From: Holosporaceae bacterium
GTDB lineage: Bacteria; Pseudomonadota; Alphaproteobacteria; UBA3830
NCBI GenBank assembly: GCA_031276835.1
Contig: JAISMI010000011.1
Coordinates: 1-14,331 of the forward strand
Direction of reading: 5' to 3'
Length of the DNA: 14,331 nt
The notes under the pieces were generated by a model. It was not told where the DNA came from. It worked only from the letters and a program-made list of their open reading frames with translations, and searched no databases. Shown one piece after another: positions 83 through 14,331 of this stretch. How positions within the stretch are numbered: the first letter of the stretch is position 1; every line of letters begins with the position of its first letter. The position numbers were made by a program, and so were the translations under genes.

Positions 83-292
83 TATTCCAAATAAATTAAA
101 ATTTCCTAACGAAACCTAATATTATATAAGGCATTGTGGAGAAAATAGCAAGTTTTTTGTGGCGGCGTTGTGGCGTTTTTTCTATTTGCATAGGGCGAAA
201 GGCGTTAGTTTTAATAAAAAGCAATATATCAAAAAACATTGATTTTTCAGAGCGTGAGTGCCATATATAAGTTTATGGGAAAACCTATACTG
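83..292. other. Non-coding stretch, no supportable gene
   Basis: I see no gene here. A short repeat of the word GTGGCG around 160-176 and a short AAATAG/CTATTT inverted repeat (around 145-186) flank a T-rich segment. Neither makes a convincing terminator or RNA fold. If the tRNA-Glu fragment at 293-341 is an attachment-site remnant, this stretch would be the right-hand end of the inserted DNA. Confidence 0.4.
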
Positions 293-341
293 TCGCCCTT
301 TCACGGCGGCAACGCGGGTTCGAATCCCGCTGGGGACGCCA
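293..341 (+). tRNA. tRNA-Glu(UUC), 3' half only (partial; possible att remnant)
   Basis: The anticodon arm is intact: stem 293-297/305-309 with loop CTTTCAC and anticodon TTC at 300-302. A 4-base variable region (310-313) follows, then a perfect T arm (314-318/326-330, loop TTCGAAT), the 3' acceptor strand TGGGGAC (331-337), the discriminator G and an encoded CCA (339-341). The 5' acceptor strand should read close to GTCCCCA, followed by a D arm, but neither occurs upstream. The sequence before 293 cannot pair with the acceptor and has no D arm. Tyrosine integrases commonly duplicate the tRNA from the anticodon arm to the 3' end, so an integration-site remnant is the preferred reading. A decayed tRNA gene is the alternative. 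It is not a usable tRNA as written. Confidence 0.7.
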
Positions 342-420
342 TGTTTTCGGTTGGTCTCGCGGCGTTAGGAAAAAATATTTTTATGGAAGATGATTGCTTT
401 TATGGACGCAGTATTTTGTG

Positions 421-426
421 TACAAT
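421..426 (+). promoter_or_regulatory. Candidate -10 element for leuS
   Basis: TACAAT differs from the TATAAT consensus at one base. A start 7 bases after its last base would be A433, exactly the first paired base of the long hairpin at 433-530. No good -35 hexamer lies 16-18 bases upstream (TTTATG at 398-403 is poor), so the call is tentative. An alternative weak pair is TTGTTG (437-442) with TTAAAT (461-466), spacer 18. Confidence 0.35.
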
Positions 427-432
427 GCTGCA

Positions 433-530
433 ATCGTTGTTGACTTATGTTCTTTGGTGATTAAATCTTTTGTGGTTACATTGTTGTGCGTGTGTTATCA
501 ATCATTACAAAGACGTAGGTTAACAACGAT
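433..530 (+). promoter_or_regulatory. Long imperfect hairpin in the leuS leader
   Basis: Positions 433-462 pair with 500-530. The first 18 pairs (433-450 with 513-530) are continuous, with three G-U wobbles. One bulged T (451) follows, then five pairs (452-456 with 508-512), a small internal loop (457 against 505-507) and five more pairs (458-462 with 500-504). The apical loop is 37 bases (463-499). No T-run follows, so it is not an intrinsic terminator. The leuS ribosome binding site (542-547) starts 12 bases after the stem. It could be a 5'-terminal stabilising or regulatory structure of the leuS mRNA, a separate small RNA, or a palindromic repeat element. Confidence 0.65.
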
Positions 531-551
531 CTTGGTCTATTGGAGTGAATT

Positions 552-3131
552 ATGTCTGTTGATATTTCGGAAATAGCGCCCTATAATTTTTCCGTAATAG
601 AGCCTAAATGGCAAGATTTTTGGTTAAAAAACGATTCGTTTCGTACGGATTGCAATTCGTCAAAGAAAAAATACTATGTGCTGGAGATGTTCATGTATCC
701 GTCTGGGAAAGTGCACATTGGCCACGTTCGAAACTACGCCATAGGCGATGCAATTGCCCGTTTTAAGAGAGCCGGCGGGTTTTCAGTTCTGCATCCCGTC
801 GGATGGGACGCCTTCGGACTTCCGGCGGAAAACGCCGCTCTCAAACAGGGGGGGCGTCCCCAGGATTGGACCTATAAAAATATTGAAATTATGAAAAAGC
901 AACTGCTATCTCTCGGATTTTCCTACGATTGGAAACGGGAGTTTGCCACTTGCGACGAAAAATATTATAAATTTCAGCAGAAAATTTTTCTTGCTTTCTA
1001 CAAAAATGGATTAATCTATAGAAAAAAATCAGAAGTAAATTGGGATCCGGTGGATAATTGCGTGCTGGCAAACGAGCAGGTTATCGGCGGTCGCGGCTGG
1101 AGATCCGGAGCTCCCGTGGAGAAAAGAAAACTCTCCCAATGGTTTTTGAAAATAACGGATTTTGTCGACGAACTATTGGACGGACTGGATCATCTGGAAG
1201 GATGGCCGGAAAAAGTGAAGATCATGCAGCGTAATTGGATAGGAAGATCCGAAGGATGCTCCATTGATTTCAAAACCGACGACGGAGATGAAATTGTCGT
1301 GTTCTCAACCCGTCCGGAGACTATTTTTGGGGCGACATTTCTGGCTATTTCTCCGGATCATTCGCTGGCGACAAAATTGGCTTCCGGAAACGAAAAAATA
1401 AAGTCGTTCGTCGAAAAATGCAAAAAAGGATCGGTGGCGCAGGAATTTTTAGATAGGCAGGAAAAATTAGGAATGGATACGGGATTAACGGTTAATCATC
1501 CGTTTTTGGATAAAAAACTTCCGGTTTACATAGCAAATTTCGTCCTCATGAATTACGGGACCGGCGCCATTTTCGCTACTCCCGCTCACGATGAAAGAGA
1601 CTACGAATTCGCCGTCAAGTACGACTTGCCCATTGAACGGGTCATGGTCTCTACCGCAGACGGCGACGAATTGCCTCAAGTCGACGACGGAATTCTCGTC
1701 AATTCAGATTTTCTAGACGGATTGAATGTCGCCGAAGCCAAGGAGGCCGTTATTCGCCGTTTATGCGAAATGGGAATCGGCAAGCGCGAGGTGTTTTTTA
1801 GACTTTTAGATTGGGGAATTTCAAGACAAAGATATTGGGGATGCCCAATTCCTATGGTTCATTGCGATAAATGCGGAGTCGTTCCCCTTGAGGAGAAAGA
1901 TTTACCGGTTTTACTTCCCCGAGACGCGACTTTTTCCGGCGTCGGAAATCCGCTGGAAAAACACGAGGTCTGGAAGCGCGTTAAATGTCCGTGTTGCGGC
2001 CGCGACGCCGTTCGAGAGACCGATACCCTCGATACATTTTTTGATTCTTCCTGGTATTTTTTGCGTTTCTGCGTAAACGATCGGGAAAATGAAAATCTTC
2101 TGGAGAAAAAAGACGTTTCTCAATGGATGCGAGTGGATCAATATATTGGGGGAATCGAGCACGCCGTTTTGCATCTTTTGTACGCAAGATTTTTCTCCAA
2201 GGCGCTTACGAGATGCGGGTTTGTGGACGTGTCGGAACCGTTTGAGAATTTATTTACTCAAGGCATGGTCTGCAATGTCGCCTATCGCAAAGAAAACGGC
2301 GATTGGTTGTTTCCGGAAGAAGTTCAAAAAAGATCCAACGGCGAATACGAGGTCATAGCCACCGGCGAAAAGGTCGTCGTTGGAGGCGTCGAAAAAATGA
2401 GCAAATCAAAGAAAAATGTCGTGGATCCGGACGCCATTATAAAAAACTACGGAACAGACGCTCTGCGATTGTTTGTGGTTTCCGACACTCCTCCAGATAA
2501 AGATTTTTTGTGGTCGGACGAAGGACTGGAGGGATGTTGGAGATTCGTCAATCGAGTATGGCGTTTGTTTGTGTATGCGCAGTCGCGTGGAATTTGCGCA
2601 AAAAAATGCCAACGGGACGTTGAGATCGATACCCTAGATCCGGCCGTCCAAAAATTGTATAAGGATTTTCATCGAACGATAAAAAATGTCTCCGATTCTC
2701 TGGAGGAAAGATCCATGAACAAAGTTGTCGCCTTCATAAGAGAGTGCGTAAACTCTTTATATTCGTTTCTTGAGCAAATCAAAAACAACGAGACGGTTTT
2801 TTCCCTTATGATTCGCGATCTGATAAAATTATTGGCTCCCATCGCTCCGCACATCTGTGAAGAAGCGTGGAGTATGCTGGGATTTGAGGGATTGGTTTCG
2901 GATAGTAATTGGCCCGTATACCAGAAGGAATATCTAGAAGTTTCCACCATTGATCTGCCGATACAAATTAATGGGAAATTTCGCGGAATCGTCGCCGTAG
3001 GCGTCGACGACGACGAAGAGGTCGTTTGGGAGAAGGCTTTACAATTGCCGTCGGTGCAGAGCGCCATGGCTGGAAAGTCGCTGAAAAAGAAAATTTTTGT
3101 AAAAGGAAAAATAATAAATTTTGTTTTATAA
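552..3131 (+). CDS. leuS: Leucyl-tRNA synthetase
   Basis: This is a class Ia aminoacyl-tRNA synthetase that charges tRNA-Leu in the cytosol. The 859-residue length is normal for bacterial LeuRS. The HIGH signature is at residues 55-58 (within [13 protein letters not shown]) and KMSKS at 615-619. The CP1 editing domain is present, with the threonine-rich STRPET segment near 252-257 and PAHDERD at 344-350, whose Asp347 matches the conserved editing aspartate. Cys438/Cys441 and Cys479/Cys482 form two pairs that could bind zinc, ahead of the conserved [16 protein letters not shown] segment. The ATG start has GGAGTG at 542-547. The gene heads an operon and overlaps lptE by 11 bases. Editing and aminoacylation motifs look intact, so a functional enzyme is expected. 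Confidence 0.99.
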
Positions 3132-3588
3132 GTATCTTATTTTTTTAATATGCGCTGGATGTTCCGTAAGTCCGTTGCATGACGGCGGATCGTTGAAGGC
3201 GAATAACATAGACGTCGACGTAATCGCGGAGCGCGACGGACAGATTCTGCGCGGTTTCGTCGTGGATTCTTTGCGGGATTTGAGTTTTGCAAAGGAAAAG
3301 TATCGTCTGACAATTTCGCTGACATATGTCGAGAAACCTTTCGCAATTGCAACCGACGGAAACGCTAAACGGGTTAGTTTATCGTACGTGGCCAACGTCG
3401 TTTTAAAAAATCATAGGGAAGAGGTCGTATTTACGCGACCTGTTTCCGTCCACGCCAGTAGTAATATTTCAAGCGCGCAGGGGGAAGCGATTCTCTCCTT
3501 GTACGGACGCGACAATGGCGCGCTGCTGAAGGAATTAGGCCGTAGAATTTTGGAGAGTTTAAAGGTGTTTTTATCCAATGAAAGTTGA
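3121..3588 (+). CDS. lptE: LPS-assembly lipoprotein LptE-like
   Basis: This 155-residue predicted outer-membrane lipoprotein would plug the LptD translocon for lipopolysaccharide insertion. A short hydrophobic leader ends in CAGC with the lipidation Cys at 14, followed by SVSPLH, which resembles the C-G-F-x-P-L-Y start of alphaproteobacterial LptE. The -3 lipobox position is Cys rather than Leu, which is atypical. Family sequence conservation is low. The call rests largely on the leader plus the position between leuS and holA, a widely conserved order. A stop at 3115-3117 in this frame forces a start at TTG 3121 (or ATT 3118), inside the end of leuS, with AAGGAA at 3103-3108 rather far upstream. 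Translation is probably coupled to leuS. Confidence 0.78.
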
Positions 3589-4363
3589 TTTTAAAAATAT
3601 AAACGCAAATCATATAAAAGCGGGAAGCATTTTCTACCTGTACGGAAATTATAAAAAGACGTTTGATGTGTTTTGCAATTTTGTTTGCGCTGAACTGAGG
3701 AAAAAATCTCAAAATATCAAGGTTCATTTCTGTTCCGTCTCCGAGAGTTTGCAAATTATAAATGAGCAATGCGATTTATTTGGGATGGAGATGGATTGCT
3801 TTTTCATAAAGAACGTCGAAGACCAGCATTTGGAAAAAATCTCCAAATTTTTCAATGAAAAAAACAGCGTTTTTGTATTGGAAAGCGGAAACTACATAAA
3901 ATCCAAAAAAATCACCGATTATTTCTTAAAGAGCGAAGCCATATCTGTGGCCTCGTTTGCCAACGACGCGACTTTGCATTCGTTGTGCAGAATGATTTTT
4001 CCCAATATTTCTCAGATTGCGTGCGATGAAATTGTGAAAATTATCGACAACACCGACGAAGAGCTTTACTCGGTTTTTTTGAAAATATCTCTACTGCTGG
4101 ACGGTCGCAATTGGGAAGATTTGAAAAGCTACGCAGTTCATAAACGATCGCTGTTGGGCGGATTGGATCTCATTCCTTTGATTAGATTTTTACTGCAGAC
4201 GGTTATGCGGGAAAGAATTCTAAAATCGGCGAATTTTTCTAAAATCAGCATAGGGAATAGGGACGCGATTCATCACCTTTTGAATGCGGAATTGATGCAA
4301 AAATTTGGATCGGAAATAAGTAAAAGTTACGTCTATCATAAGCTGATTACCGATCAAAATTGA
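3578..4363 (+). CDS. holA: DNA polymerase III delta subunit (HolA)-like
   Basis: HolA is the clamp-loader subunit that opens the beta sliding clamp during replication. The 261-residue protein shows the family's N-terminal pattern: IFYLYGNYKK near residues 18-27 and FVLESGNYIKSKK near 99-111, in the place of the conserved hydrophobic strand followed by a Lys-rich segment. The gene position after leuS-lptE agrees. At 261 residues it is clearly shorter than the roughly 340 of typical HolA, suggesting a compact or reduced collar domain. The ATG start overlaps lptE by 11 bases and has AAAGGTG about 10 bases upstream (3561-3567). The 3' end overlaps the convergent rluB by 10 bases. The sequence is divergent and the assignment depends partly on context. 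Confidence 0.75.
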   Translation: MKVDFKNINANHIKAGSIFYLYGNYKKTFDVFCNFVCAELRKKSQNIKVHFCSVSESLQIINEQCDLFGMEMDCFFIKNVEDQHLEKISKFFNEKNSVFVLESGNYIKSKKITDYFLKSEAISVASFANDATLHSLCRMIFPNISQIACDEIVKIIDNTDEELYSVFLKISLLLDGRNWEDLKSYAVHKRSLLGGLDLIPLIRFLLQTVMRERILKSANFSKISIGNRDAIHHLLNAELMQKFGSEISKSYVYHKLITDQN

Positions 4364-5088
4364 ATTATTTTCAGCAGATTATCGATTTCTTTTCGAGAGG
4401 CGCGGACGACGTCTCCAGGTTTTAGATCGCCGAGGGTAAATGGTCCATAACTTATTCTGATCAATCGGTTTACGATACAGCCGACGTATTCCATTATTTT
4501 CCTGATTTCTCGATTTTTCCCCTCGCTCAACGTCGCCGTGATCCAGGAATTGGCGCGGCCGCCGTCGGCGTTGACGACTACGTCGACCGATCCATATTTT
4601 ATGCCGTCGACGGTTACTCCGTTTTTTAATTGGCGGATTTTTTCCTCCGTTAGATTTCCGAAAATTCTTCCGCGGTATGTTCTTTTCAATCCGGTGCTTG
4701 GAAGCTCGAGTTTTCGGGCCAGATCTCCGTTGTTGGCGAACAGAAGAAGCCCCTCGGAGTTGTAGTCCAATCTTCCGACGTAGAGTAGTCTATGTTCGGC
4801 GATATTCGGAAAAAAATCAAAAACCGTTCTGCGATTTGTTTCGTCGCTTTTGGCGGTGATCACTCCTTTGGGTTTATGAAATTTCCAGATAATTATTTCT
4901 TTTGATTTTTTGCCGATTTCTTTGCCGTCGATTGTTATTTTCGACTGATCTGTAACAAAAAAAACCGGAGTTTTGACGACCTCGCCGTCGACTGCGACCC
5001 GTCCGGTTTCTATCAATTTTTCGGCTTCTCGTCGGGACGCAATTCCGCTTTCGGCTATTTTTTTAGCGATTCTGACGGCGGAGGTCAA
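4354..5088 (-). CDS. rluB: RsuA/RluB-family 23S rRNA pseudouridine synthase
   Basis: This enzyme would isomerise a specific uridine in ribosomal RNA, in RluB the helix 80 region of 23S rRNA. An N-terminal S4 RNA-binding domain (about residues 4-50, with SGIASRREAEKLI) is followed by the RsuA-type catalytic domain. The catalytic aspartate is Asp108 in GRLDYNSEGLLL, and the family motif EGKNREIRK lies at 189-197. Length (244) is normal. RluB rather than RsuA or RluF is inferred from overall resemblance (NRLIRISYGPFTLG) and is less certain than the family. The best start is TTG at 5088, two bases after the upstream gene's stop. No ATG or GTG lies nearby in frame and the ribosome binding site is weak, so coupling to the upstream gene is likely. 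Confidence 0.9.
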   Translation of the reverse strand: MTSAVRIAKKIAESGIASRREAEKLIETGRVAVDGEVVKTPVFFVTDQSKITIDGKEIGKKSKEIIIWKFHKPKGVITAKSDETNRRTVFDFFPNIAEHRLLYVGRLDYNSEGLLLFANNGDLARKLELPSTGLKRTYRGRIFGNLTEEKIRQLKNGVTVDGIKYGSVDVVVNADGGRANSWITATLSEGKNREIRKIMEYVGCIVNRLIRISYGPFTLGDLKPGDVVRASRKEIDNLLKIIQF

Positions 5089-5090
5089 GA

Positions 5091-6467
5091 TCAGTATCCG
5101 GTCATTATTCGATCCACCAGCTGTTGAGTCGTGGGGATGAAATTATTCGCGTAAAAGGGATCTTCTCCGAAACGATATGCCGAATGTCCCGCGAATATCA
5201 AACTGGCGTCAAGATCTCCTCCGTGCGCCGCCGCCTGTAGGCTTTTTTGTATGCAAAAACTTCGGGGATCTGGAATTTTCCCCAACGATCCTCCATTCTG
5301 ACACCAGCTGCTGAAACGACACGCGCTCAAACAGCCGCAGCAGCTTCTTTGGTCGCTCAAAATTCGCTTGGACTGCTCCGGAGTCGCGAAAATAACAGTT
5401 TGGGAAGGGGTCGACATCGCCGCGGAAAATCCATTTTTAATCCAGGAATTTACTTCTTCGCTTCGGGAGACGTCGATGGATACTTCTCTTCCCGACGCAA
5501 TGATTTTTAGAGGAGAATCTTCAACAATATCCACCTGACGATCTTGTAATTCCAGTAAATCCGTCAGCATTTTATTGCCGATGGCCGACGAATAAAATCC
5601 CGTCGGACTTAGGGGAGTTAATTTCACGTCTCCTTTTTTCAGAGACATTAACTTCGGCTGCCAGGTTTTGGCCACCGGACATTCGGTCGTTAAAATTGAG
5701 CGGGTTCCGAATTGAAAAGCCGTTAAACCCAATTCTTTGTTGTCGACATAGTCCTCCCATTCGGAAAGCCACCAGACGCCGCCGGCGATGATTATGGGAG
5801 TAGTCTGCAGAGAGAAATTGTCCATAGTTTTTCGCAATTCCACAAGACGCAGATATGGATTGAGCGGTTTTAGCGGATCTTCCGCGTTGGATAATCCGTT
5901 ATGCCCTCCGGCGAGCCATGGATCTTCATAAACGACTCCGCCGAGAAAATCGCGCGCCTTCTTGAATGATCTTCGGAATAGCGCTGAAAACGCTCTTGCG
6001 GAAGATACTATCGGATAGTAATAAACTCCAAATTGAGAGGCGATTTCTCCCAGATTGTAGGGCATGCCGGCTCCGCAGACTATCGCGTGGACGCAGCCCT
6101 TGGCTCCCTCGAGAATTCGAAAGAGAATTTCTTCGCAGGCGCCCATTTCCCACAGGACGTTCATATGAATTCGGCCTTTTCCATTTGATCTTTCTCGGGC
6201 GATTTTCGCCTGAGCTATGCCGCCGGCGACGGCATAGTCGATCAACTCCTGCCGGCGCTCCAAACGAGACCTTCCGCGATAAATTTGGGGAATGATTTTT
6301 CCGTTTTCATCATAGGAATCGGCGTTTACGGCGGAAAACGTCCCGACTCCTCCGGCGGAAGCCCATGCTCCGCAGGTCTCTCCGGTAGAAATAGAAATTC
6401 CCTTTCCGCCTTCTACCAGTGGCAACACTTCAACTCCAGAAATTTTTACAAGATCCAACTTTAACAC
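5091..6467 (-). CDS. Nitronate monooxygenase-like flavin oxidoreductase with Cys-rich C-terminal extension
   Basis: This is a TIM-barrel FMN protein of the 2-nitropropane dioxygenase/nitronate monooxygenase family. It has GGHNG at 187-191, the phosphate-binding IIIAGGVW around 226-232 and FQFGTR at 251-256. The 458-residue length exceeds classical NMO because of a C-terminal extension with Cys376, 377, 379, 383, 389 and 405, followed by AHGGDLDASLIFAGHSAYRF and DPFYANNFIPT. From memory, long alphaproteobacterial relatives share this ending, so the extension looks like a subfamily feature, perhaps a metal or Fe-S site (inference). The physiological substrate is unknown. The GTG start is supported by AGGAG at 6473-6477. 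An ATG at 6471-6469 is in another frame. It is followed two bases later by rluB and is divergent from the M16 cassette. Confidence 0.88.
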   Translation of the reverse strand: MLKLDLVKISGVEVLPLVEGGKGISISTGETCGAWASAGGVGTFSAVNADSYDENGKIIPQIYRGRSRLERRQELIDYAVAGGIAQAKIARERSNGKGRIHMNVLWEMGACEEILFRILEGAKGCVHAIVCGAGMPYNLGEIASQFGVYYYPIVSSARAFSALFRRSFKKARDFLGGVVYEDPWLAGGHNGLSNAEDPLKPLNPYLRLVELRKTMDNFSLQTTPIIIAGGVWWLSEWEDYVDNKELGLTAFQFGTRSILTTECPVAKTWQPKLMSLKKGDVKLTPLSPTGFYSSAIGNKMLTDLLELQDRQVDIVEDSPLKIIASGREVSIDVSRSEEVNSWIKNGFSAAMSTPSQTVIFATPEQSKRILSDQRSCCGCLSACRFSSWCQNGGSLGKIPDPRSFCIQKSLQAAAHGGDLDASLIFAGHSAYRFGEDPFYANNFIPTTQQLVDRIMTGY

Positions 6468-6472
6468 GCATA

Positions 6473-6477
6473 CTCCT
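6473..6477 (-). promoter_or_regulatory. Ribosome binding site deciding the GTG start of the flavoprotein gene
   Basis: AGGAG on the minus strand lies five bases before GTG 6467-6465. It selects this GTG over the nearby out-of-frame ATG. Confidence 0.7.
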
Positions 6478-6499
6478 AAACTTTAGCGAGGCCTATATT

Positions 6500-6528
6500 A
6501 ATATAATATTAACCGAATTACATCATAA
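6500..6528 (-). promoter_or_regulatory. Candidate sigma70-like promoter for the leftward flavoprotein-rluB unit
   Basis: On the minus strand TTATGA (6528-6523), a 17-base spacer and TATATT (6505-6500) give a -10 with five of six consensus bases and a -35 with three of six. Initiation near 6493 would leave a leader of about 25 bases carrying the AGGAG site. The region is very AT-rich and includes a 12-base palindrome (6494-6505), so chance matches are easy. Confidence 0.35.
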
Positions 6529-6650
6529 AATTAGACGCCGTCGGAAAAATAAGACCGCTCTCTGTTCGGTTCTTCTGTATTTTAGATATTTTTGGACGAA
6601 AAAAGAGAATCAATTTGCCGCGCTTCCAAAATAAAAAACTTCCATTATTT

Positions 6651-6656
6651 TATAAT
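6651..6656 (+). promoter_or_regulatory. Candidate -10 element for the M16 cassette
   Basis: A perfect TATAAT ends seven bases before the ATG at 6664, so initiation would fall at or next to that ATG and give a leaderless message. This fits the absence of any ribosome binding site before 6664. No -35 hexamer is visible at the right distance, so the evidence is one-sided. A second TATAAT at 6502-6507 is another possible -10. Confidence 0.3.
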
Positions 6657-6663
6657 TTATGCC

Positions 6664-8001
6664 ATGAATATTACTAGGTTGAGTGTTTTTACTGTGAAGA
6701 AAATAGTTCTGGGTTTTATTCTACTTTTTGGAGGATCTCAGGCGAAATATAACGTTGTTGATTTCGTTCTGGAAAATGGTCTTCGGGTGGTTTGCATCGA
6801 GAAAAAAACCTCTCCAATTACGTTCTTTTCGATTTGGTACCGATGCGGATCCAAATGCGACGCCATTTCTAAATCTGGAGCGGCCCATTATTTAGAGCAC
6901 ATGGCTTTTGTCGCCAATAAAATGGAATTCAGTAATTTTTTGGAGGACGTAGGAGCCGATAAAAATGCATTTACCTCGATTAACGCCATTTGCTTCCACG
7001 AATTGGTTCCCAAAGAAAACATAGAGACCGTTTTCATCCATGAGAGTCGTCGCATGATCTCTCTGGATATCGACGACGACGCCTTTCTATCGGAGAAGGG
7101 CGCTATACTGGAGGAGCGCAGCACGAGGGTCGACAACGATCCCAACGGAGCGTCGCAGGAGTCGCTGCTGTCAAATATTTTCAATAGGGAAGCGGGAGGC
7201 ATTGGGATTATCGGATGGAAACATGAAATACAATCCATAACCAAAAAGGATCTATACAAATTTCATCGCAAATGGTTTGCTCCCAACAACGCCGTTGTCG
7301 TGCTATCCGGAGATTTCGATTTGAATCAGATAAAAAAAATGGCCGAAAAGTATTTCGGAAAAATTCCGCCAAAAAAATTACCGAAGAGGGTCAAAAAAAC
7401 TCCGTCTGGGCCTTGTCTGAAGGAAATAAAATACGGCTCTCCTAAAAATGGATCCGCTTCTGTGGCGGAGTATATATACCGGACTCCATTTTCTTCCAAA
7501 GAAAGTTTGAAAAAAACGATAGCTCTGGAGGTCGCCCTTAAGGTTATGAATCGGCCGGCTTCATTTGTGAAAAAAATCCTGAAGGACGCTTTAAACCATG
7601 CGACGGAAGTCGCGTTTTCATACGTTGATAGGTTGTTTCAATATGATATTGTCGTGTTGGAAATTGCGTCTCCGTCAATCGACGATCTGGGCGATGCGGA
7701 AAACGCGTGGCGCTACTTAAAAAACAAGTTGGCCTACGCGGGCGTTTTAAAGTCGGAATTGGATGCGGTAAAGAGGCAAGAACTCGTTTCTCTAGCCTAT
7801 AAAAAAGACGATATCATAGAAATGTCCAACTATTTCGGATGGCTGCTGATAAACGGATATTCGGTGGACGAAATACAGTCTATAGACGACATGATACAGG
7901 AGGTTTCTGAAAAAGAATGTAACGATCTTCTGAGGGAAATTTTTTCACAGGATCCTATAGCTATATTCAGAATTTTACCGAAGAGTTACGACCGTGAATA
8001 A
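6664..8001 (+). CDS. M16 zinc metallopeptidase, catalytic subunit (first of four)
   Basis: This is an exported M16 (pitrilysin/MPP-like) peptidase of about 445 residues. The inverted zinc motif HYLEH lies at 75-79 (His75, His79 as ligands, Glu78 as catalytic base), and the downstream glutamate ligand is in ILEERSTR (Glu150/151). The N-terminal strand FVLENGLRVV and WYRCGSKCD are typical of M16. The Arg/Tyr substrate-contact motif of the C-terminal M16 domain is not recognisable, as expected of the catalytic partner in an M16B heterodimer. A signal peptide ends at GGSQA. The frame is open from TTG 6592, but residues before 6664 do not resemble a signal peptide. ATG 6664 is preferred, and GTG 6694 (starting KKIVLGF) is also plausible. 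It overlaps the next gene by 8 bases. Confidence 0.93.
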   Translation: MNITRLSVFTVKKIVLGFILLFGGSQAKYNVVDFVLENGLRVVCIEKKTSPITFFSIWYRCGSKCDAISKSGAAHYLEHMAFVANKMEFSNFLEDVGADKNAFTSINAICFHELVPKENIETVFIHESRRMISLDIDDDAFLSEKGAILEERSTRVDNDPNGASQESLLSNIFNREAGGIGIIGWKHEIQSITKKDLYKFHRKWFAPNNAVVVLSGDFDLNQIKKMAEKYFGKIPPKKLPKRVKKTPSGPCLKEIKYGSPKNGSASVAEYIYRTPFSSKESLKKTIALEVALKVMNRPASFVKKILKDALNHATEVAFSYVDRLFQYDIVVLEIASPSIDDLGDAENAWRYLKNKLAYAGVLKSELDAVKRQELVSLAYKKDDIIEMSNYFGWLLINGYSVDEIQSIDDMIQEVSEKECNDLLREIFSQDPIAIFRILPKSYDRE

Positions 8002-9319
8002 AATAATACTTCTGCCTCTGTTATTTATTTTGTTTTTCGCCGACGCCGTTGAAGAGAAGTCCCGTCGATCTCAGGTAAAGGAATTAATAAGCGACGGCGG
8101 CGTGAAATTTTGGTTCATGAACGACGACGGCGCGCCTCTGATACATATAAAAATAGCGTTTAAAAATGCCGGATCTTCCTATCAGGAAAAAACAAAAACG
8201 GGAGTTCCAGTATTTTACTCCGACGCGGTTTTTTGCGGCTCCGGAAAATATTCTAAAACGCAATTTTCGGAGGCCTGTTCCAATATATCCGCCAAAATAT
8301 ACTGCAACGCCGATATGGATAACATATATTTTTCTCTGACGGCGCCGAAAATAACTCTGAACGATGCGATTTCCCTATTTAATACGGCAATTACTTCTCC
8401 AAATTTTGAAGAGGATAAGGTAAAAATTATACAAAACGGCTTGGGATATTCCGCCTATAATTACTCGCTGGATCCGGTTGGAGTCGCTTTTTCTTCGATC
8501 ATTCCGTCAATAATTTTCAAATCCCATCCCTATGAAAACGGAGTCGTCGGTTTTCCGGAAGATTTTATGAAGTTGTCCATAGAGGATCTAAAAAGCTATA
8601 AATCAAAATTTTTGACGGCGCGGAACGCGGAGATTTGCGTATTCGGCGACGTCTCCGAAAACAGAGCGAAATCATTGGTCGACAAAGCGTTTTCCGGAGT
8701 TGAAAGAGGAACTCCCTCCGCGGACGACGTCAAAGACGTTACGCCAACGCTAAATGCGGAATTAAAAAAATATTACGTCGATGGACCGCAGAGTTCCATT
8801 TTTTTTGTGCTTAAAATGGAAAAACCGCCGTCGCCCAAGCGCTATATCGCCGCGGTTTTGTATAGAGTTCTCGGAGAAGGATATGTTTTTAGGGGGAAAA
8901 TTCTTTCTGAACTGAGAACGAAGAAAGGATTAATCTACAGCGGATCCCTATGCTACGTCGATCTAAACCACGCCAGTTACGTTTTTGGAAAAGTTCAAAC
9001 GGATAACTCCAAAGCGCAGAGCGCAATCGATTCGCTGAAGGAAATTATCAAAAATCTTCGCGAGAATGGAATAAACCAGTCGGAATTGCAATTTGCCAAA
9101 AGCAACATAAAGGGGAAGATGCTGGTCGGACTGCGAAATGCGGAAAATCTCTGTCATTTTTATTTTCTCAAGAAATTACGCGGATTTGGTAAGGACGTTC
9201 TGTCCGAGATCATGGAAAAAACCGACGCCGTTACGCTGCAGGAGGTAAATTCTCTGGCTAAAGAAATTCTTGACGAAAAGCGTATGTCGTTTGTGGTTAT
9301 AGGCGGAGGATCAATTTGA
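7994..9319 (+). CDS. M16-family protein, non-catalytic Arg/Tyr partner subunit (second of four)
   Basis: This 441-residue exported M16 homologue lacks a zinc site. After the conserved FKNAGSSYQEK segment, the HxxEH position reads VFYSD. The C-terminal half keeps the partner signature SELRTKKGLIYSG, with Arg308 and Tyr315 at the family spacing of seven, just after a glycine-containing loop (GEGYVFRG). M16B heterodimers divide labour in this way: one subunit supplies zinc and the other supplies the Arg/Tyr pair. The leader MNKIILLPLLFILFFADA is a typical signal peptide with an A-x-A cleavage site. The GTG start overlaps the first M16 gene by 8 bases, with AAGAG about 8 bases upstream. It most likely pairs with the product of the preceding gene. 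Confidence 0.87.
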   Translation: MNKIILLPLLFILFFADAVEEKSRRSQVKELISDGGVKFWFMNDDGAPLIHIKIAFKNAGSSYQEKTKTGVPVFYSDAVFCGSGKYSKTQFSEACSNISAKIYCNADMDNIYFSLTAPKITLNDAISLFNTAITSPNFEEDKVKIIQNGLGYSAYNYSLDPVGVAFSSIIPSIIFKSHPYENGVVGFPEDFMKLSIEDLKSYKSKFLTARNAEICVFGDVSENRAKSLVDKAFSGVERGTPSADDVKDVTPTLNAELKKYYVDGPQSSIFFVLKMEKPPSPKRYIAAVLYRVLGEGYVFRGKILSELRTKKGLIYSGSLCYVDLNHASYVFGKVQTDNSKAQSAIDSLKEIIKNLRENGINQSELQFAKSNIKGKMLVGLRNAENLCHFYFLKKLRGFGKDVLSEIMEKTDAVTLQEVNSLAKEILDEKRMSFVVIGGGSI

Positions 9320-10569
9320 GAAAATATCTGCGAAATAACGGGTTATTTTTCCAATTAGCGGCGAGTTTTCTGTTATTTTTTCAGCAGTCCTTCGGCGTTT
9401 CGAGCTGGGAAAGCGGATTGCGCAAATGCGTGCTGAGCAATGGCGTAGACGTCATATTGCATGAAAATTTTCGAATGCCGGTAGTGGTGGTCGGAATAAT
9501 TTTTCACGTCGGATATTTTCATGCTCCAATTAGCAAACAGGGCGTTAACGATTTGGTCGCCGCCAATCTGATTGATCAAAAATCTCGTATGAAATTATCG
9601 GACGTCGGCGTTTTATATGAAATAAACTCCTACGGCGCCCATACGGAAATTCTTGCGATGATGGCGCCTAAACATTTGAAGAGATTCTTTCAAATTATAT
9701 CGGAAAGTAGTTTTTCCGTAAAAAATCTCGAGACGTTAAAAAAACAAATGTGCGTTAACAATAAACTCGCCCGTTATTGTTTCGAGGACGCCGTCCATAA
9801 TGAGATTTTCTCCAACATAAAATATAAAAATTCCAATTTCGGCGGCGCCGTCTTCAACGAGCAAGCTCTATCGGCCGTTTCCTCCGCCGACGTAAAAGAT
9901 TTTTTCGAGGAACATTATAAAAAATGCCATTTGTCCGTCGTCATATGCGGAGCGGTAGGCCATAAGAATCTCATAAAAATCTTGCAGTCGACGGTATGTA
10001 ATCTACCGCCTCGGCGGAAAGTCTCCCATGATCGTTGTTTGGATAGAATTCCCAAAAATATTACCATCGAGAGTAAATATGCCGGTAGATCCGTACGATA
10101 TTTTTACAAAATTTCCAAGGAAGACGTTCCCCTTTTCGAGGCGTTTTCAAAAATTCTTAATTACGAATTATTTAGATTTTTCGAAAAAACAAATAAAATA
10201 ATCTTCGACTATAAAAATCATAATATTGCGACCAACGGAGACTGTATTTGCGGAATTGTTTTCTATCCAAAAAGCGACGTTTCCCTGTCTGATTTTCAAA
10301 GAGCGTACGAAATTTTTGTTCATCGGCTTTGCGGTCAAGAGTTTTCCGAAGACGATCTGGAAAAAGCGCGACGGTATGCCGATTATTCCCGACAGTTTTT
10401 ATTGGGCGATTTGTACGACGTCTATCGCAGAGTAAAAAATGATTACTTAAACGGATTGAATTCGGAAACGGAAATTCATAATTCGAAACAATTTAACTCG
10501 TTTGCCGAAAAACTTTTTCGACAAAATTTAACGCTTCAAATTATTACAAGATACAGACCGGATAAGTAA
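9316..10569 (+). CDS. M16-family pseudoenzyme, degenerate catalytic-type subunit (third of four)
   Basis: This 417-residue exported protein has an M16 N-terminal fold most like the first gene: CVLSNGVDVILHEN aligns with its FVLENGLRVVCIEK, and SKQGVNDLVAAN with its SKSGAAHYLEHM. All three HxxEH positions are replaced (Asp79, Ala82, Ala83) and no Glu-Glu ligand motif follows. The Arg/Tyr partner motif is also absent; the equivalent region reads FFEKTNKIIFDYK. It therefore has neither half of an M16 active site. The hydrophobic leader to about residue 27 suggests export. The TTG start overlaps the preceding stop (TTGA) and has a strong GGAGGA at 9305-9310, five bases away. The reading frame is intact, which argues for a retained non-enzymatic role. 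Confidence 0.8.
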   Translation: MRKYLRNNGLFFQLAASFLLFFQQSFGVSSWESGLRKCVLSNGVDVILHENFRMPVVVVGIIFHVGYFHAPISKQGVNDLVAANLIDQKSRMKLSDVGVLYEINSYGAHTEILAMMAPKHLKRFFQIISESSFSVKNLETLKKQMCVNNKLARYCFEDAVHNEIFSNIKYKNSNFGGAVFNEQALSAVSSADVKDFFEEHYKKCHLSVVICGAVGHKNLIKILQSTVCNLPPRRKVSHDRCLDRIPKNITIESKYAGRSVRYFYKISKEDVPLFEAFSKILNYELFRFFEKTNKIIFDYKNHNIATNGDCICGIVFYPKSDVSLSDFQRAYEIFVHRLCGQEFSEDDLEKARRYADYSRQFLLGDLYDVYRRVKNDYLNGLNSETEIHNSKQFNSFAEKLFRQNLTLQIITRYRPDK

Positions 10570-10571
10570 CC

Positions 10572-11873
10572 ATGTCCAAAAAACTACAAATAATAATCTC
10601 CGCCGTATTAATCGCGTTAATTTCCGCCACAATTCTTTTTAAGAAGGAAATACTATTCATAAAAATTTCGGAAGTCGGCAACAATTACGGGATGACGGCT
10701 TATCAAATAAGGGTAAAGAGCAATAATTTACTATACGTAAAGTGCGTGTTTAAAAATTCCGGAGCGCTGCGCAACGCTCCGGAGAAACGCGGAATTTCCG
10801 TTGTGGTCGGAGACCTTCTTTGCAGAAGAATTGGCGGATTATCTCCGGAGGAAACCAAAGAGAAATTACTGGATCTGGGAGTGCAAGATCTATCCATTCG
10901 GGCCTGCGAGGACGATTTCATCCTGTCTTTTTATGTTTTAAAGGACAAAGCCCCAGAGGCGTTGAAATTTTTGTCTCCAATTTTTTTTAGGCCTGAATTT
11001 TCTAAAAATGACTTGGAATTTGTGAAGGAAAAGTATCCAATTACGTCGGATCTGGACTTATCTCATCCCCGCGAGTTGCTTTTTGATAAACTCATGGAGA
11101 CGCTCTACACGAATCACAACTATGGATTGAATGTTACCGGAAACGCGCGATCCATTGCCGGCATTTCGGAAGACGACGTTCGTAATTTTGTAAAGTCGAA
11201 TTTCTCCCGAGATAATCTTGAGGTTTTTTTCACCGGAGACATATCTCAGTCCGACGTCGAAACTCACGTTGAAACTCTATTTTCCAAGATTCCAGAAAAA
11301 GGTAGTCGGGATTTTATCGATAAAATCGGCGACGTTTCTTCTTGTCCTTTGTCCGAGGAAAAAGACTACGTAATTCTCAAGCCTAATATGAAGGATATTG
11401 TCGGGATAATATGCGGATTCCGCGTGGATAATCTGGATAGGAAGGAAGAGGCGGCCGCCCATGTGATAATAAATACTCTCTTCGACGCCAAAATCGGAGA
11501 TTTTTCCCAGGGACTTCGGGCGCGCAAAATAGCCTACAGTTGCGATTTTCATTTCATTCAACGGAATCAGTCTAATGTTTTTTTTCTGGAGATCTACGTG
11601 TATAAAAATGATCTGGAGAATTACAAAAAATATTTAGAGGAAAAAATATCCCAATACGGCTGCAAATTAAATTTGAAAAAATTGGAGCGAACTAAAGATC
11701 AATTGGCGATGCAATCTGGGGTAGGATTCGCCAATATTTTCGACGTCGACAAGAAAATGAAGTATAGTTCTCTGCCATTTTCCCAAATTACCCGGGAAAT
11801 TTTTTCTAATACCATGAAAAAACTTTTTGACAGGTCCCGAATGAGGGTAGTCTACGTCCAATCCGAACGTTGA
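10572..11873 (+). CDS. M16-family protein, non-catalytic partner type, membrane-anchored (fourth of four)
   Basis: This 433-residue M16 homologue resembles the second gene. It has FKNSGALRNAPEKRG where that has FKNAGSSYQEKTKTG, and the zinc position reads VVVGD (compare VFYSD). The partner motif is partly kept as GLRARKIAYSC, with Arg316 and Tyr322 spaced one residue shorter than in the second gene. The N-terminal hydrophobic stretch (about residues 5-23, flanked by Lys) has no clear cleavage site and may act as an inner-membrane anchor with the body in the periplasm. ATG 10572 lies two bases after the previous stop, with a weak GGATAAG site. No further gene follows for about 150 bases, so it ends the cassette. 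Confidence 0.8.
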   Translation: MSKKLQIIISAVLIALISATILFKKEILFIKISEVGNNYGMTAYQIRVKSNNLLYVKCVFKNSGALRNAPEKRGISVVVGDLLCRRIGGLSPEETKEKLLDLGVQDLSIRACEDDFILSFYVLKDKAPEALKFLSPIFFRPEFSKNDLEFVKEKYPITSDLDLSHPRELLFDKLMETLYTNHNYGLNVTGNARSIAGISEDDVRNFVKSNFSRDNLEVFFTGDISQSDVETHVETLFSKIPEKGSRDFIDKIGDVSSCPLSEEKDYVILKPNMKDIVGIICGFRVDNLDRKEEAAAHVIINTLFDAKIGDFSQGLRARKIAYSCDFHFIQRNQSNVFFLEIYVYKNDLENYKKYLEEKISQYGCKLNLKKLERTKDQLAMQSGVGFANIFDVDKKMKYSSLPFSQITREIFSNTMKKLFDRSRMRVVYVQSER

Positions 11874-11882
11874 CGGGCCGTT

Positions 11883-11907
11883 AAAATCTCATGGAATCCG
11901 TGATTTT
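11883..11907 (+). terminator. Weak inverted repeat after the M16 cassette
   Basis: AAAATC (11883-11888) and GATTTT (11902-11907) form a 6-bp stem with a 13-base loop, shortly after the last M16 stop. The stem is AT-rich and no clean T-run follows, so intrinsic termination is doubtful. It is the only hairpin candidate between this operon and the next promoter. Confidence 0.22.
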
Positions 11908-11970
11908 CGTTTCGCCGGAAATTTATTAGATAATAGGGCGTTCTGAATCAATTTTTATTGCAGCGATCTG

Positions 11971-11999
11971 TTGCAAGTTTCATTCTACGGTAATATACT
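11971..11999 (+). promoter_or_regulatory. Sigma70-like promoter for the PPIase gene
   Basis: TTGCAA (11971-11976), a 17-base spacer and TATACT (11994-11999) match the consensus at five of six and five of six positions respectively. Initiation near 12006 gives a leader of about 20 bases ending in the GGAGAG ribosome binding site. This is the best promoter in the window and marks the start of the transcription unit that probably runs through rpmI, rplT, dksA and lepB. Confidence 0.72.
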
Positions 12000-12015
12000 A
12001 CATCGATTTTTATGT

Positions 12016-12021
12016 GGAGAG
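12016..12021 (+). promoter_or_regulatory. Ribosome binding site deciding the PPIase start
   Basis: GGAGAG lies five bases before ATG 12027. A longer in-frame start at ATG 12012 would put this site inside the gene and place charged residues ahead of the signal peptide, so 12027 is preferred. Confidence 0.75.
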
Positions 12022-12026
12022 ATATT

Positions 12027-13088
12027 ATGAAATTTAAAGTTGGATGTGCAATGGCGGTTTTGGCCGTCATGTTTTTTGATACGGCTCGTGGGGGCGCGCT
12101 GAAAAAGCATTTTAGCAATGGCGAGCAGTCGACCAGTCTTGAAGTGGGAGAGAAAAGTGCGCCTTCTGAAGACGGAGGCGTCGCCGCTAACGATTCGGCG
12201 GAATCGTCAAAAGAAGACGCTTCTAAAGCCGCTGCCATAGCGACTCAACCGGAAGAAAACGCCTCTAGTTCTTCGGAGAAGAAAAAAATAGTCGGAGATC
12301 CAGTTGTGTTAAGGATTAATGGGAAAAAAGAATATAGGCGCAGCCACATTCTTGCCGATATGAAAATGATTCCTCCACAAATGATTCAGGGAGTTTCTCC
12401 GGATAAATTGTTCGAGATGCTGAGAGACCAAAGATTAAAGGCCTATCTTATGATTGAGCAGGCCAAAAAAGCCGGTATGGATCGCACAAAGGAGTTTTTC
12501 GATAGGGTCGAGCAGCTTAAAGAAGAGTTATTGGGGAGGATGTTCCTCATGAAAGAATTGGCTCCGAAGACCGAAAACGAATCCGCCCTGAAGGCGAGAT
12601 ATACGAAATATCTTGTCGAATTCAAAAAGGGAAAGGAGTTTAAGATATATCACATTATGACCTCCACCGAAGCGGAAATAAAAGAAGTTTTGGCCGCTCT
12701 TGGAAAAGGCGAGGATTTCTCTAAATTAGCCAAACAAAAAAGTATGGCTCCGTCGAAAGAAAAAGACGGAGAAGAGGGATACATTCCGGTCGACATAATG
12801 CCGTCCCAGATAAAGGATAAAGTTATTCTTCTTAAAGTCGGCGAATACACAAAAGATTTCGTGAAAACAGAAAACGGATTCCATGTGTTTAAGGTGGGAG
12901 ACATAAGAGATACCACTCCGCAGAAGTATGAAGAAGCCGTTCCGATGCTGAAGCAGCTTGTTTTGCATGAGGAAATGACCAAAATGCTAGATAGGCTCGA
13001 AAAACAGGCGAAGGTGGAGCGATTCAATGAAGACGGGACTCCGGCCGCCGCCCCTAAGGAAAAAAAGTCGGAGGCTCCGGCCGTATAA
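12027..13088 (+). CDS. Periplasmic parvulin-type peptidyl-prolyl isomerase (SurA/PpiC-like)
   Basis: This exported PPIase of 353 residues would catalyse Xaa-Pro isomerisation and chaperone outer-membrane or periplasmic proteins. The signal peptide (about residues 1-24, MKFKVGCAMAVLAVMFFDTA) precedes a Ser/Glu/Ala-rich low-complexity linker (about 25-90). Next come a SurA-like N-terminal helical region (about 93-155, including QRLKAYLMIEQAKKAG) and one parvulin domain (about 203-295: KEFKIYHIMT, GEDFSKLAKQKS, GEEGYIP, VKTENGFHVFKVGD). The C-terminus is acidic, basic and Pro/Ala-rich. Only one parvulin domain is seen, unlike E. coli SurA with two, so a PpiC-like alphaproteobacterial peptidylprolyl isomerase is the safer name. 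It has its own promoter and precedes rpmI by 82 bases. Confidence 0.87.
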   Translation: MKFKVGCAMAVLAVMFFDTARGGALKKHFSNGEQSTSLEVGEKSAPSEDGGVAANDSAESSKEDASKAAAIATQPEENASSSSEKKKIVGDPVVLRINGKKEYRRSHILADMKMIPPQMIQGVSPDKLFEMLRDQRLKAYLMIEQAKKAGMDRTKEFFDRVEQLKEELLGRMFLMKELAPKTENESALKARYTKYLVEFKKGKEFKIYHIMTSTEAEIKEVLAALGKGEDFSKLAKQKSMAPSKEKDGEEGYIPVDIMPSQIKDKVILLKVGEYTKDFVKTENGFHVFKVGDIRDTTPQKYEEAVPMLKQLVLHEEMTKMLDRLEKQAKVERFNEDGTPAAAPKEKKSEAPAV

Positions 13089-13089
13089 T
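13084..13089 (+). promoter_or_regulatory. Candidate -10 element for rpmI-rplT
   Basis: A perfect TATAAT overlaps the PPIase stop codon. Initiation near 13096 would produce a leader containing the whole hairpin 13115-13148. The -35 position is an A-run (13061-13066) with little resemblance to consensus, so this is only suggestive. Confidence 0.25.
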
Positions 13090-13114
13090 TTAGAAAGGTC
13101 GTTGATTGTTTAAA

Positions 13115-13148
13115 ATCGAGTCGGGTGTGTGGGTATACCTGGCTCGAT
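13115..13148 (+). promoter_or_regulatory. Leader hairpin upstream of rpmI (candidate r-protein operator)
   Basis: ATCGAGTCGGGT (13115-13126) pairs along its full length with ACCTGGCTCGAT (13137-13148), a 12-bp stem with two G-U wobbles and a 10-base loop that includes GTGGGTAT. No T-run follows; the next bases are ATTTATAAATAT and then the rpmI ribosome binding site at 13161. The position fits a translational operator for the L35-L20 genes, which L20 controls in E. coli and Firmicutes. The structure is not one I recognise from those systems, so function is inferred from position only. Confidence 0.55.
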
Positions 13149-13160
13149 ATTTATAAATAT

Positions 13161-13166
13161 GGAGGA
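13161..13166 (+). promoter_or_regulatory. Ribosome binding site deciding the GTG start of rpmI
   Basis: GGAGGA followed by four A's precedes GTG 13171. The longer in-frame start at 13129 would lie within the leader hairpin and add 14 residues not found in L35. Confidence 0.8.
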
Positions 13167-13170
13167 AAAA

Positions 13171-13368
13171 GTGCCCAAACTAAAAACAAAAAGCTCAGCT
13201 AAAAAACGTTTCAATTTTACCGCTACTGGTATGGTAATCGCTCAGCCGGCTTTCAAAAGACATAATTTAAGAAAACGTTCTCAGAAAATGAAAAGGCAAG
13301 CTCGAGGAACTATGATTTTAAGCGTCTGCGACGCGAAAAATATCGCCAAATATATGCCGTACAAATAG
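13171..13368 (+). CDS. rpmI: 50S ribosomal protein L35
   Basis: This small basic protein of the large ribosomal subunit is 65 residues long, the usual L35 length. The N-terminus [13 protein letters not shown] and the [20 protein letters not shown] segment are diagnostic, and the tail [16 protein letters not shown] matches the alphaproteobacterial style. GTG 13171 is chosen because of the strong GGAGGA site and because mature L35 begins at this PK. It is followed by rplT after 10 bases. infC, which usually precedes rpmI, is absent here, and the upstream neighbour is a PPIase gene. The leader carries a 12-bp hairpin that may regulate it. Confidence 0.97.
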
Positions 13369-13378
13369 GGAGTGAAAA

Positions 13379-13735
13379 ATGTCGAGAGTAAAAAGAGGCG
13401 TAACGGCTCATGCGCGTCATAAAAAGGTCATAAAACTTTCCAAAGGGTTTATCGGACGTTCAAAAAATTGCTACCGTTCTGCAGTGGAAAGGTTGGAAAA
13501 GTCCATGCAGTACGCCTACAGAGATCGCCGCAATAGAAGGCGAGATATGCGGGAGCTGTGGATTGTGAGAATCAATGCCGCGGTTAGGGCTCATGGAATG
13601 AAATATTCTCAATTTATCCATGGATTGGTCAAGGCAAATATGCTAATTGATAGAAAAATACTGTCTGAATTGGCCATTAACGATAAAGCGGCGTTTTCTG
13701 AAATCGTTAATAGAGTTAAAACTATTTTGGCTTAA
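13379..13735 (+). CDS. rplT: 50S ribosomal protein L20
   Basis: L20 is an early-assembly large-subunit protein that binds 23S rRNA. The 118-residue length is typical. The sequence shows the strongly basic N-terminal extension ([20 protein letters not shown]), the [18 protein letters not shown] segment, the Arg-rich [16 protein letters not shown] helix and the globular C-terminal domain with [23 protein letters not shown] at 13368-13374 overlaps the rpmI stop, coupling the two genes. In E. coli and Bacillus L20 represses its own operon by binding the leader mRNA, and the hairpin before rpmI is the candidate target here. pheS, a common downstream neighbour, is replaced by dksA. Confidence 0.99.
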
Positions 13736-13749
13736 TTTTAGGTGATTTT

Positions 13750-14181
13750 ATGGACAACAAAATTTGTGAATTGCCCAAGGGATATAAGCCTTCTGAAAAA
13801 GAAGAGTTCATGAACGATTATCAGCGCGAATATTTTCGACGCAGATTAATCCAGTGGAAAGACGATATCGTCAAGGGCGCCGACGAGGTTATAAAGTACC
13901 TTCAAGAGGAGGGAAAAACCTGTACGGACGTCGCCGATAGAGCTTCGACGGAAACCGATCTAGCATACGAATTGAGAAGTAAAGAAAGAGCGCGAAAACT
14001 TATAAGTAAAATTGACGAGGCTCTTCTAAAAATAAAAAACGGAACCTATGGATACTGCGAAGAAACCGGCGAGCCAATTTCTCTAAAAAGGCTGGAGGCA
14101 AGACCGGTGGCGGTGTTGAGCATAGAGGCTCAGGAGCGTCATGAAAAACAGGAACGGGTGCAGAAAGACGATAGACAATGA
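13750..14181 (+). CDS. dksA: RNA polymerase-binding transcription factor DksA
   Basis: DksA binds the RNA polymerase secondary channel and, with ppGpp, adjusts rRNA and amino-acid promoters. The 143-residue protein has the long coiled coil (about residues 20-95) with the tip motif DVADRA (Asp60, Asp63, Ala65), matching the D-x-x-D-x-A tip needed for activity in E. coli. The C-terminal globular domain reads YGYCEETGEPISLKRLEARP and keeps only one of the four zinc-finger cysteines (Cys103). Such reduced-cysteine DksA proteins are common in Alphaproteobacteria, so this is a lineage trait rather than damage. The ribosome binding site is AGGTGA (13740-13745). It overlaps the next gene by ATGA, and its position after rplT suggests co-expression with ribosomal proteins. 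Confidence 0.95.
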   Translation: MDNKICELPKGYKPSEKEEFMNDYQREYFRRRLIQWKDDIVKGADEVIKYLQEEGKTCTDVADRASTETDLAYELRSKERARKLISKIDEALLKIKNGTYGYCEETGEPISLKRLEARPVAVLSIEAQERHEKQERVQKDDRQ

Positions 14182-14331
14182 ACGACGATATGCCCAAGAA
14201 TGTTCAAGAATCGAAAAATGTCGAAGCGCCGAGCGCAAAGGACAAACTAAAGGACGATCTGCGTTTTATTCTCATTTTTGTATTCTTTTTTTTCCCATTT
14301 CGGTTCTTTGTCTACGATTGGTACATTGTTC
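14178..14331 (+). CDS. lepB: Signal peptidase I, N-terminal part (cut by window end)
   Basis: About 51 residues are visible. A polar N-terminus rich in Lys/Asp/Glu is followed by one transmembrane segment (about residues 31-41, Phe-rich) and then FRFFVYDWYIV. This matches the run that in LepB leads into the P-S-G-S-M catalytic serine motif, and the window stops just before where that motif should appear. LepB would cleave signal peptides in the periplasm, including those of the exported M16 and PPIase proteins here. The start ATG overlaps the dksA stop (ATGA), implying translational coupling; ATG 14190 is an alternative. The missing catalytic motif keeps confidence moderate. Confidence 0.7.
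   Translation, partial: MNDDMPKNVQESKNVEAPSAKDKLKDDLRFILIFVFFFFPFRFFVYDWYIV

Follow-up and report, generated by a model that had tools for sequence, protein, structure and literature searches.

What can four consecutive genes of the M16 peptidase family do together when only the first of them carries the zinc motif of these enzymes? This question is raised by a stretch of 14,331 nucleotides (nt) from a Holosporaceae bacterium (GenBank assembly GCA_031276835.1, contig JAISMI010000011.1, positions 1 to 14,331), hereafter called the window, which belongs to an assembly of 727 kb in 99 contigs that is 69% complete. The M16 genes are named P1 to P4 in order of transcription, and the genome of the window is referred to as G000. 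They had been described in the first-pass annotation as four adjacent homologues on one strand; their coordinates are right, and the M16 C-terminal domain (PF05193) is found in all four above the cut-off of 23 bits (68.7 bits in P1, 90.3 in P2, 28.0 in P3 and 57.0 in P4). The gene order quite probably reads A-I-A'-I', namely a catalytic pair of a zinc-bearing (A) and a zinc-less (I) subunit that is followed by a dead pair.

The predicted catalytic pair

P1 and P2 can be inferred, with good support from their motifs, to form a normal bacterial M16B heterodimer, the predicted active pair of the cassette. P1 (6664-8001, + strand) encodes a putative zinc-bearing A-type subunit of 445 residues whose N-terminus resembles a signal peptide ending in SQA-K; its reading frame is open upstream from a TTG at 6592. 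The zinc motif HYLEH is encoded at 6886-6900 (+; residues 75-79, with His75/Glu78/His79), and Glu150-Glu151, encoded at 7111-7116 (+), stand at the position of the distal zinc ligand. P2 (7994-9319, +) encodes a putative I-type M16B subunit of 441 residues, again with a signal-peptide-like N-terminus, which lacks HxxEH, has VFYSD (8210-8224, +) aligned to the zinc motif and, by motif comparison, keeps an R/Y pair running from R308 to Y315 (8915-8938, +). In M16 enzymes, such a pair is supplied by the opposite half to complete the active site, according to the available part of PMC12731061. P3 (9316-10569, +; 417 residues with a hydrophobic N-terminus) and P4 (10572-11873, +; 433 residues) appear as pseudopeptidases of A' and I' type, respectively. 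Both are devoid of HxxEH, the aligned residues being DLVAA in P3 (9550-9564, +) and VVVGD in P4 (10800-10814, +), and the R/Y pair is missing from P3 and degenerate in P4, where a shortened remnant is represented by R316-Y322 (11517-11537, +). Judged by these motifs, P1 and P2 hold one complete active site and P3 and P4 hold none.

The same division is present in relatives, which were collected as 40 fetched stretches after a search of 40 genomes of the window's family. Among complete frames, HxxEH occurs in 31/31 copies of P1 and in 0/33 of P2, 0/33 of P3 and 0/27 of P4. The earlier claim that only the first gene carries the motif, with VFYSD, DLVAA and VVVGD at the aligned positions of the others, is thus borne out by alignment, and no relative with HxxEH in all four genes is present among the fetched loci. 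His75, Glu78, His79, Glu150 and Glu151 are invariant in all 31 P1 copies, the window's included. In the 8 of 8 P1 proteins compared, the distal Glu lies 72 residues past His79, the usual offset being 76 (75-77 in 11 A-type and 76 in three MPP-like outgroup proteins). The R/Y pair is found in 33/33 P2 copies and in the I-type outgroups (4/4 and 5/5), and both residues in 0/31 P1 and 0/33 P3 copies. In the PDB, the closest match of P1 is 3amj_C, the 'zinc peptidase active subunit' (E 1.6e-42), and the best matches of the P2 family profile are 3gwb_A, an 'M16 inactive domain family protein' (E 1.9e-32), and 3amj_B, the 'inactive subunit' (E 7.1e-32). The N-terminal M16 domain (PF00675) is above its cut-off only in P1 (45.3 bits) and P2 (36.2 bits), and the scores against the NCBIfam models of YfmH/YfmF (NF047421, NF047422) are below the curated cut-offs, with 68.4 of 250 bits for P1 and 60.9 of 285 for P2. 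The two genes overlap in 33/33 loci, 14 of which share an overlap of 14 nt (spacing is measured throughout from the first possible start codon), and they are in this way adjacent like those of two-subunit M16B systems. An export signal or anchor had also been proposed for each of the four proteins; by a crude hydropathy test, which is not a signal-peptide predictor, hydrophobic N-termini are present in 31/31 P1, 32/33 P2, 31/33 P3 and 27/27 P4 copies, with a loose cleavage site in 20/31 P1 and 14/33 P2.

P1:P2 is taken as the active pair because its split active site matches the division of labour in SPH2681/SPH2682, an M16B heterodimer of Sphingomonas sp. A1 (PDB 3amj, 3ami) in which a zinc-bearing subunit is likewise combined with a zinc-less partner. 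In particular, P1 has the active chain of this enzyme as its best match, and the P2 profile ranks the inactive chain second. In SPH2681, the second His is followed by the distal Glu after 76 residues (H55 to E131, in the accessible text of PMC12731061), versus 72 in P1. PA0372/PA0371 and TTHA1264/TTHA1265 are pairs of the same type. M16B two-gene operons are mentioned, and the pairs described, in the portions available of PMC11266112 and PMC12731061, respectively. Whereas SPH2681-type systems consist of two genes, the operon of the window adds a second pair, A'-I', that has no active site. The same holds for Bcn-gP1/Bcn-gP2 (lanthipeptide) and AlbE/AlbF (subtilosin maturation), M16B pairs of Bacillus and relatives that have two subunits and, in the sections of the sources at hand, no extra pseudo-pair. 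HxxEH is in Bcn-gP2 and R/Y in Bcn-gP1 (PMC8960859, in part), while AlbF shares the 72-residue offset of P1 (H58 to E130; PMC12731061, in part). The window's genome also contains a single MPP-like M16 gene (contig 42) that has HxxEH, like P1, but differs from both P1 and P2 in combining it with R/Y on one chain (5/5 rows of its kind); it forms a clade of its own in the two careful trees described below.

The first-pass annotation had counted one active and three inactive paralogues. One zinc-bearing and three zinc-less genes in a conserved operon are indeed what is found, but the three are not equivalent, P2 being an ordinary R/Y partner. Such a partner is familiar from M16B systems of two genes; the novelty lies solely in P3 and P4, which look like a dead counterpart of P1 and P2.

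Subunit type of P3 and P4

P3 and P4 are predicted to adopt the M16 fold. The AlphaFold2 model of P3 has a mean predicted local distance difference test score (pLDDT) of 80 and a predicted template modelling score of 0.73 (best of five, the other four having pLDDT of 60-70; 12-sequence alignment, with 12/12 relatives used), and that of P4 has a mean pLDDT of 88 (86-88 over five models; 30-sequence alignment, with 30/34 relatives used, the fusion protein P0032 and the weak P0044-P0046 being left out). The top Foldseek match of the P3 model is 3ami_A (E 1.6e-23) and that of the P4 model has an E of 7.6e-25. For both models, the 50 listed matches consist of M16 peptidases and of entries from respiratory complexes, the latter being taken here as complex III core subunits. 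A place outside M16 is ruled out for P3 and P4 by the Pfam scores, the models and the Foldseek matches, in keeping with the earlier assignment of all four proteins to this family.

Within M16, sequence comparison lends moderate support to P3 being A-type and P4 I-type. In profile-profile comparison, P3 scores 158 with P1, 107 with P4 and 58 with P2, while P4 scores 186 with P2, 107 with P3 and 66 with P1. Against the A-I pairs of other families, P3 reaches 214 with A and 161 with I, and P4 303 with I and 147 with A. When bacterial PDB chains are considered, the P3 profile matches the active chain 3amj_C and not 3amj_B or 3gwb_A (E 0.01), and the P4 profile matches 3gwb_A and 3amj_B and not 3amj_C (E 1e-6). 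Two careful trees were built from hand-chosen rows with different outgroups, the first from 54 of 87 rows and the second from 60 rows that include 8 of 11 new pairs. Both assign P3 to the A side (100/99 and 99/98) and P4 to the I side (100/99 each); the first makes P4 the sister of P2 (92/81), and the second leaves this point unresolved.

A fifth M16 protein, P5, is encoded in the window's genome apart from the cassette (contig 2, L053:2160-3479, +). Profile scores of 373 with A and 169 with I mark it as A-type; it has HxxEH in 0/9 copies looked at, and scores above 330 bits in 37/40 family genomes, some of them without the cassette. The first careful tree joins P3 and P5, though weakly (76/73). 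The loop that holds the motif has 31 residues in P1, 28 in P3 and 29-31 in P5 in the comparison set of other families, where the remaining rows have 33-36; in the 87-row set, there are one P1 with 30 and four cyanobacterial-type A rows with a long insert. In the former set, the short loop is confined to A-type proteins of the window's family, which fits an origin of P3 from an A subunit within the family.

Several observations, however, weigh against this assignment. Mitochondrial MPP-beta and complex III chains are at the top of both the P3 and the P4 profile matches, which fits P3 and not P4. A quick tree of all 87 rows puts P3 outside the A side and joined to P4 (support 76). In the second careful tree, P1 clusters with A subunits from other families (92/96) and not with P3 or P5. 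Long branches lead to both P3 and P4. In approximately unbiased tests, P3 on the I side is rejected once (p 0.039) and has a p of 0.34 in the other test, while neither P4 on the A side (0.08, 0.12) nor a P3+P4 clade (0.14, 0.14) is rejected. As to the quick tree, trees constrained to P3+P1 and P4+P2 score 9.3 and 12.3 log units above it, so that it is not optimal. Structure comparison with VIA-align does not distinguish A from I for P3; for P4, inactive chains rank first and third, tied with 7v4y_A, which is probably the zinc-bearing TTHA1264 chain.

An I-type P4 raises the possibility that the subunits exchange partners. P4 would then replace P2 to give a second, membrane-tethered peptidase, P1:P4, with another specificity, and P3 would be a decoy or inhibitor that occupies I subunits. 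The profiles and both careful trees that make P4 I-type are in line with this proposal, as is the R...Y pair that 10/27 P4 copies, including the window's, retain. The pair is nevertheless one residue shorter in P4, R and Y are each kept in 16/27 copies, and one or the other is gone in 17/27, so that such an exchange cannot be a general role; we regard it as quite unlikely.

The tether itself is suggested by the N-terminus of P4, whose hydrophobic segment (10572-10637, +) is probably an uncleaved inner-membrane anchor. A hydrophobic 12-mer is present there in 27/27 copies and a loose AXA-like cleavage site in 2/27, and the model has a helix at residues 2-22 (block pLDDT 74, 66 and 44). A separate observation regards P0032, a metagenome protein of 679 residues in which a P4 orthologue is fused in frame to an LD-carboxypeptidase (PF17676, PF02016). 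It is known from one contig of 2223 bases, and its second half has no counterpart frame among the fetched loci; the fusion points at most weakly to peptidoglycan peptides and may be an artefact of assembly.

Conservation and taxonomic range

P1, P2, P3 and P4 follow one another in this order on one contig in 25/40 family genomes (with P1 truncated at a contig edge in G019), and the cassette is cut by a contig end in three more (G005, G018 and G027). Five genomes have other genes after P3. In two of them, G003 and G030, P4 is located at another site; in the remaining three (G007, G026 and G028, the last having P1 split by a contig end), no P4 was found. P1-P3 are absent from 7/40 genomes (G012, G013, G014, G031, G032, G033 and G039), with a lone P4 at a contig end of G014. 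In total, P1 is found in 32 of the 40 genomes, P2 in 33, P3 in 33 and P4 in 31, including a fragment in G005. P3 accompanies P2 in 33/33 genomes with P2, at a P2 threshold of 75 bits, by which an HxxEH frame of G012 (L048), whose best match is P2 at 58 bits, does not count as P2 and is taken to be an MPP-like gene. P2 and P3 overlap in 33/33 loci (by 4 nt in 21), and P3 and P4 are spaced by -47 to +2 nt in 27/27. One assembly, G006, has two diverged cassette copies (L031/L032), one with P1-P3 up to the contig end and one with P1-P4; contamination, estimated at 4%, may be the cause.

Could P3 and P4 be functionless duplicates in decay? Their active-site residues are lost and P3 is the least conserved of the four, with a mean column identity of 34% against 54% for P1, 49% for P2 and 45% for P4. 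Yet 33 P3 and 27 P4 copies are full open frames, and the gene order is kept. The ratio of non-synonymous to synonymous substitution rates (dN/dS) is 0.10-0.28 for P3 and 0.07-0.35 for P4, with 0.05-0.26 for P1 and P2, in close pairs that are at least 68% identical, come from outside the window's genus and in some cases have a saturated dS. Because values of 0.07-0.35 indicate purifying selection on P3 and P4 where it is measurable, decay is very improbable.

The surroundings of the cassette are far more variable. In a census of 35 loci, several of them cut by contig ends and with frames of at least 150 residues considered, neighbours are partly common within genera but rarely so across genera, and even the most widespread neighbour family is limited to 7/35 loci, which rules out a conserved extra partner gene. 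The commonest is an outer-membrane efflux protein (7 loci, all from the window's genus, though not in the window), followed by a Glu/Gln-tRNA-synthetase-like protein (6), a proton pyrophosphatase (6) and MutS (5, all five loci of genus g6). A replacement M16 gene is likewise ruled out for the genus g5 loci in which P4 is missing (L038, L040 and L042), where the next gene on the same strand belongs to one family, F9, annotated by Pfam in one of three cases as exonuclease VII large subunit and without a profile match to P1-P4.

These data bear on the possibility that P3 and P4 have left proteolysis and serve another envelope complex in a structural or chaperone capacity, like the core proteins of bc1, with no more than the operon in common with P1 and P2. 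The presumed complex III core subunits among the best fold matches of both proteins speak for it, and P4 can be separated from the cassette. Core proteins without HxxEH are known, as reported in the part of PMC12731061 available. On the other hand, P3 is coupled to P2 in 33/33 loci while most other neighbours differ between genera, and the annotated neighbours point to no common complex, which makes this alternative unlikely.

In the window, the cassette is flanked by a divergent gene for a 458-residue protein (5091-6467, -) with a weak nitronate monooxygenase/FabK-like match (30.4 bits vs 28) and, downstream, by a parvulin-type peptidyl-prolyl isomerase gene (PF13145, PF00639; 12012-13088, +) that has no counterpart in the other fetched cassette loci. 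An LptE-like protein is encoded after leuS (3121-3588, +), under the Pfam cut-off (14.6 of 23 bits). Scans of the window return 13 promoter-like sites versus 12.5 expected and 13 terminator-like sites versus 7.8 expected, which do not define a transcript, and no tRNA.

Full-length P3 and P4 are confined to the window's family among 49 genomes of the order, and named relatives of the two are nearly all 'Holosporaceae bacterium'. Among 385 genomes drawn evenly from the class, full-length copies occur only in G000 and G030, both from the window's family; the next matches in rank reach 133 bits for P4, covering a part of its model, and 65 bits for P3. Simple A-I pairs are present in the other three families of the order (f2 1/1, f3 1/5 and f4 3/3 genomes) and in 11 of 12 loci from eight other alphaproteobacterial families, picked among the best partial P4/P3 matches, the twelfth having a lone I-type frame. 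Cassettes of at least three M16 genes are absent from these 12 chosen loci and from 76 non-family loci among the matches listed (57 with one M16 frame, 19 with two); these outside counts rest on our own profiles and on short stretches, which diverged copies could escape, and no scan of the whole collection for runs of M16 genes was made. The A-I pair is probably the ancestral state. In the literature, titles and abstract openings among the matches listed contain no mention of more than two clustered bacterial M16 genes, which is weak evidence of novelty as subscription journals are mostly beyond the scope of the search.

A possible assembly and its meaning

The reading we prefer, and consider reasonably likely, is that the A-I-A'-I' operon encodes a P1:P2 peptidase with P3 and P4 as added non-catalytic subunits. 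P1, with the zinc site, and P2, with the R/Y pair, would form a standard periplasmic M16B heterodimer, a clam-shell endopeptidase that closes around peptides and cleaves them. P3 and P4, as diverged relatives of A-type and I-type subunits that jointly lack an active site, would be kept as non-catalytic subunits and made in step with the enzyme via translational coupling. They would most likely bind the P1:P2 enzyme or its substrates, and P4 would tether the assembly to the inner membrane. Since P3 occurs without P4 in some genomes, P3 itself probably contacts P1:P2, perhaps by pairing with P2, and P4 may be an optional tether. Physical association, tethering and a role of P3 and P4 towards substrates are what we infer from this arrangement.

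A more elaborate and tentative version of this reading is a four-subunit M16 machine, in which the P1:P2 clam-shell would be joined by a dead, membrane-tethered one (P3:P4, or P3 with a share in P2) whose task is to select, hold or gate peptides for the active one, and which would have arisen by copying a whole heterodimer and been retained within a single bacterial family. A machine of strictly four parts is not the general rule, because P4 was not found (three) or is located elsewhere (two) in 5/33 genomes with P3. Inactive paralogues beside active subunits are known from ClpP/ClpR of plastids and cyanobacteria, where their assembly is established. FtsHi1-5 are named as FtsHi pseudoproteases of chloroplasts in the accessible part of PMC11266112. 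ClpP/ClpR and FtsHi resemble what is proposed for P3 and P4 in placing inactive paralogues beside active ones; their fold is unrelated, and a comparable assembly of the cassette's products is a prediction.

For prokaryotic M16 proteins, physiological substrates are poorly characterised, according to the text available of PMC12731061. The isolate codes of the Holosporaceae metagenome-assembled genomes suggest termite guts as the habitat of the carriers, and a role in the life with the host may be speculated. The cassette is real, conserved and, as far as our searches reach, undescribed, and it is a variant of the known M16B heterodimer, not a new kind of system. A rule of pairing A with I follows from the A-I-A'-I' reading, and a dead pair coupled to a live one would represent a natural test of what the M16 chamber does without catalysis. 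Collectively, the data suggest a protein-cutting enzyme with added non-cutting subunits, and this lineage seems to have copied a whole heterodimer, lost the active site of the copy and kept it coupled to the live one.

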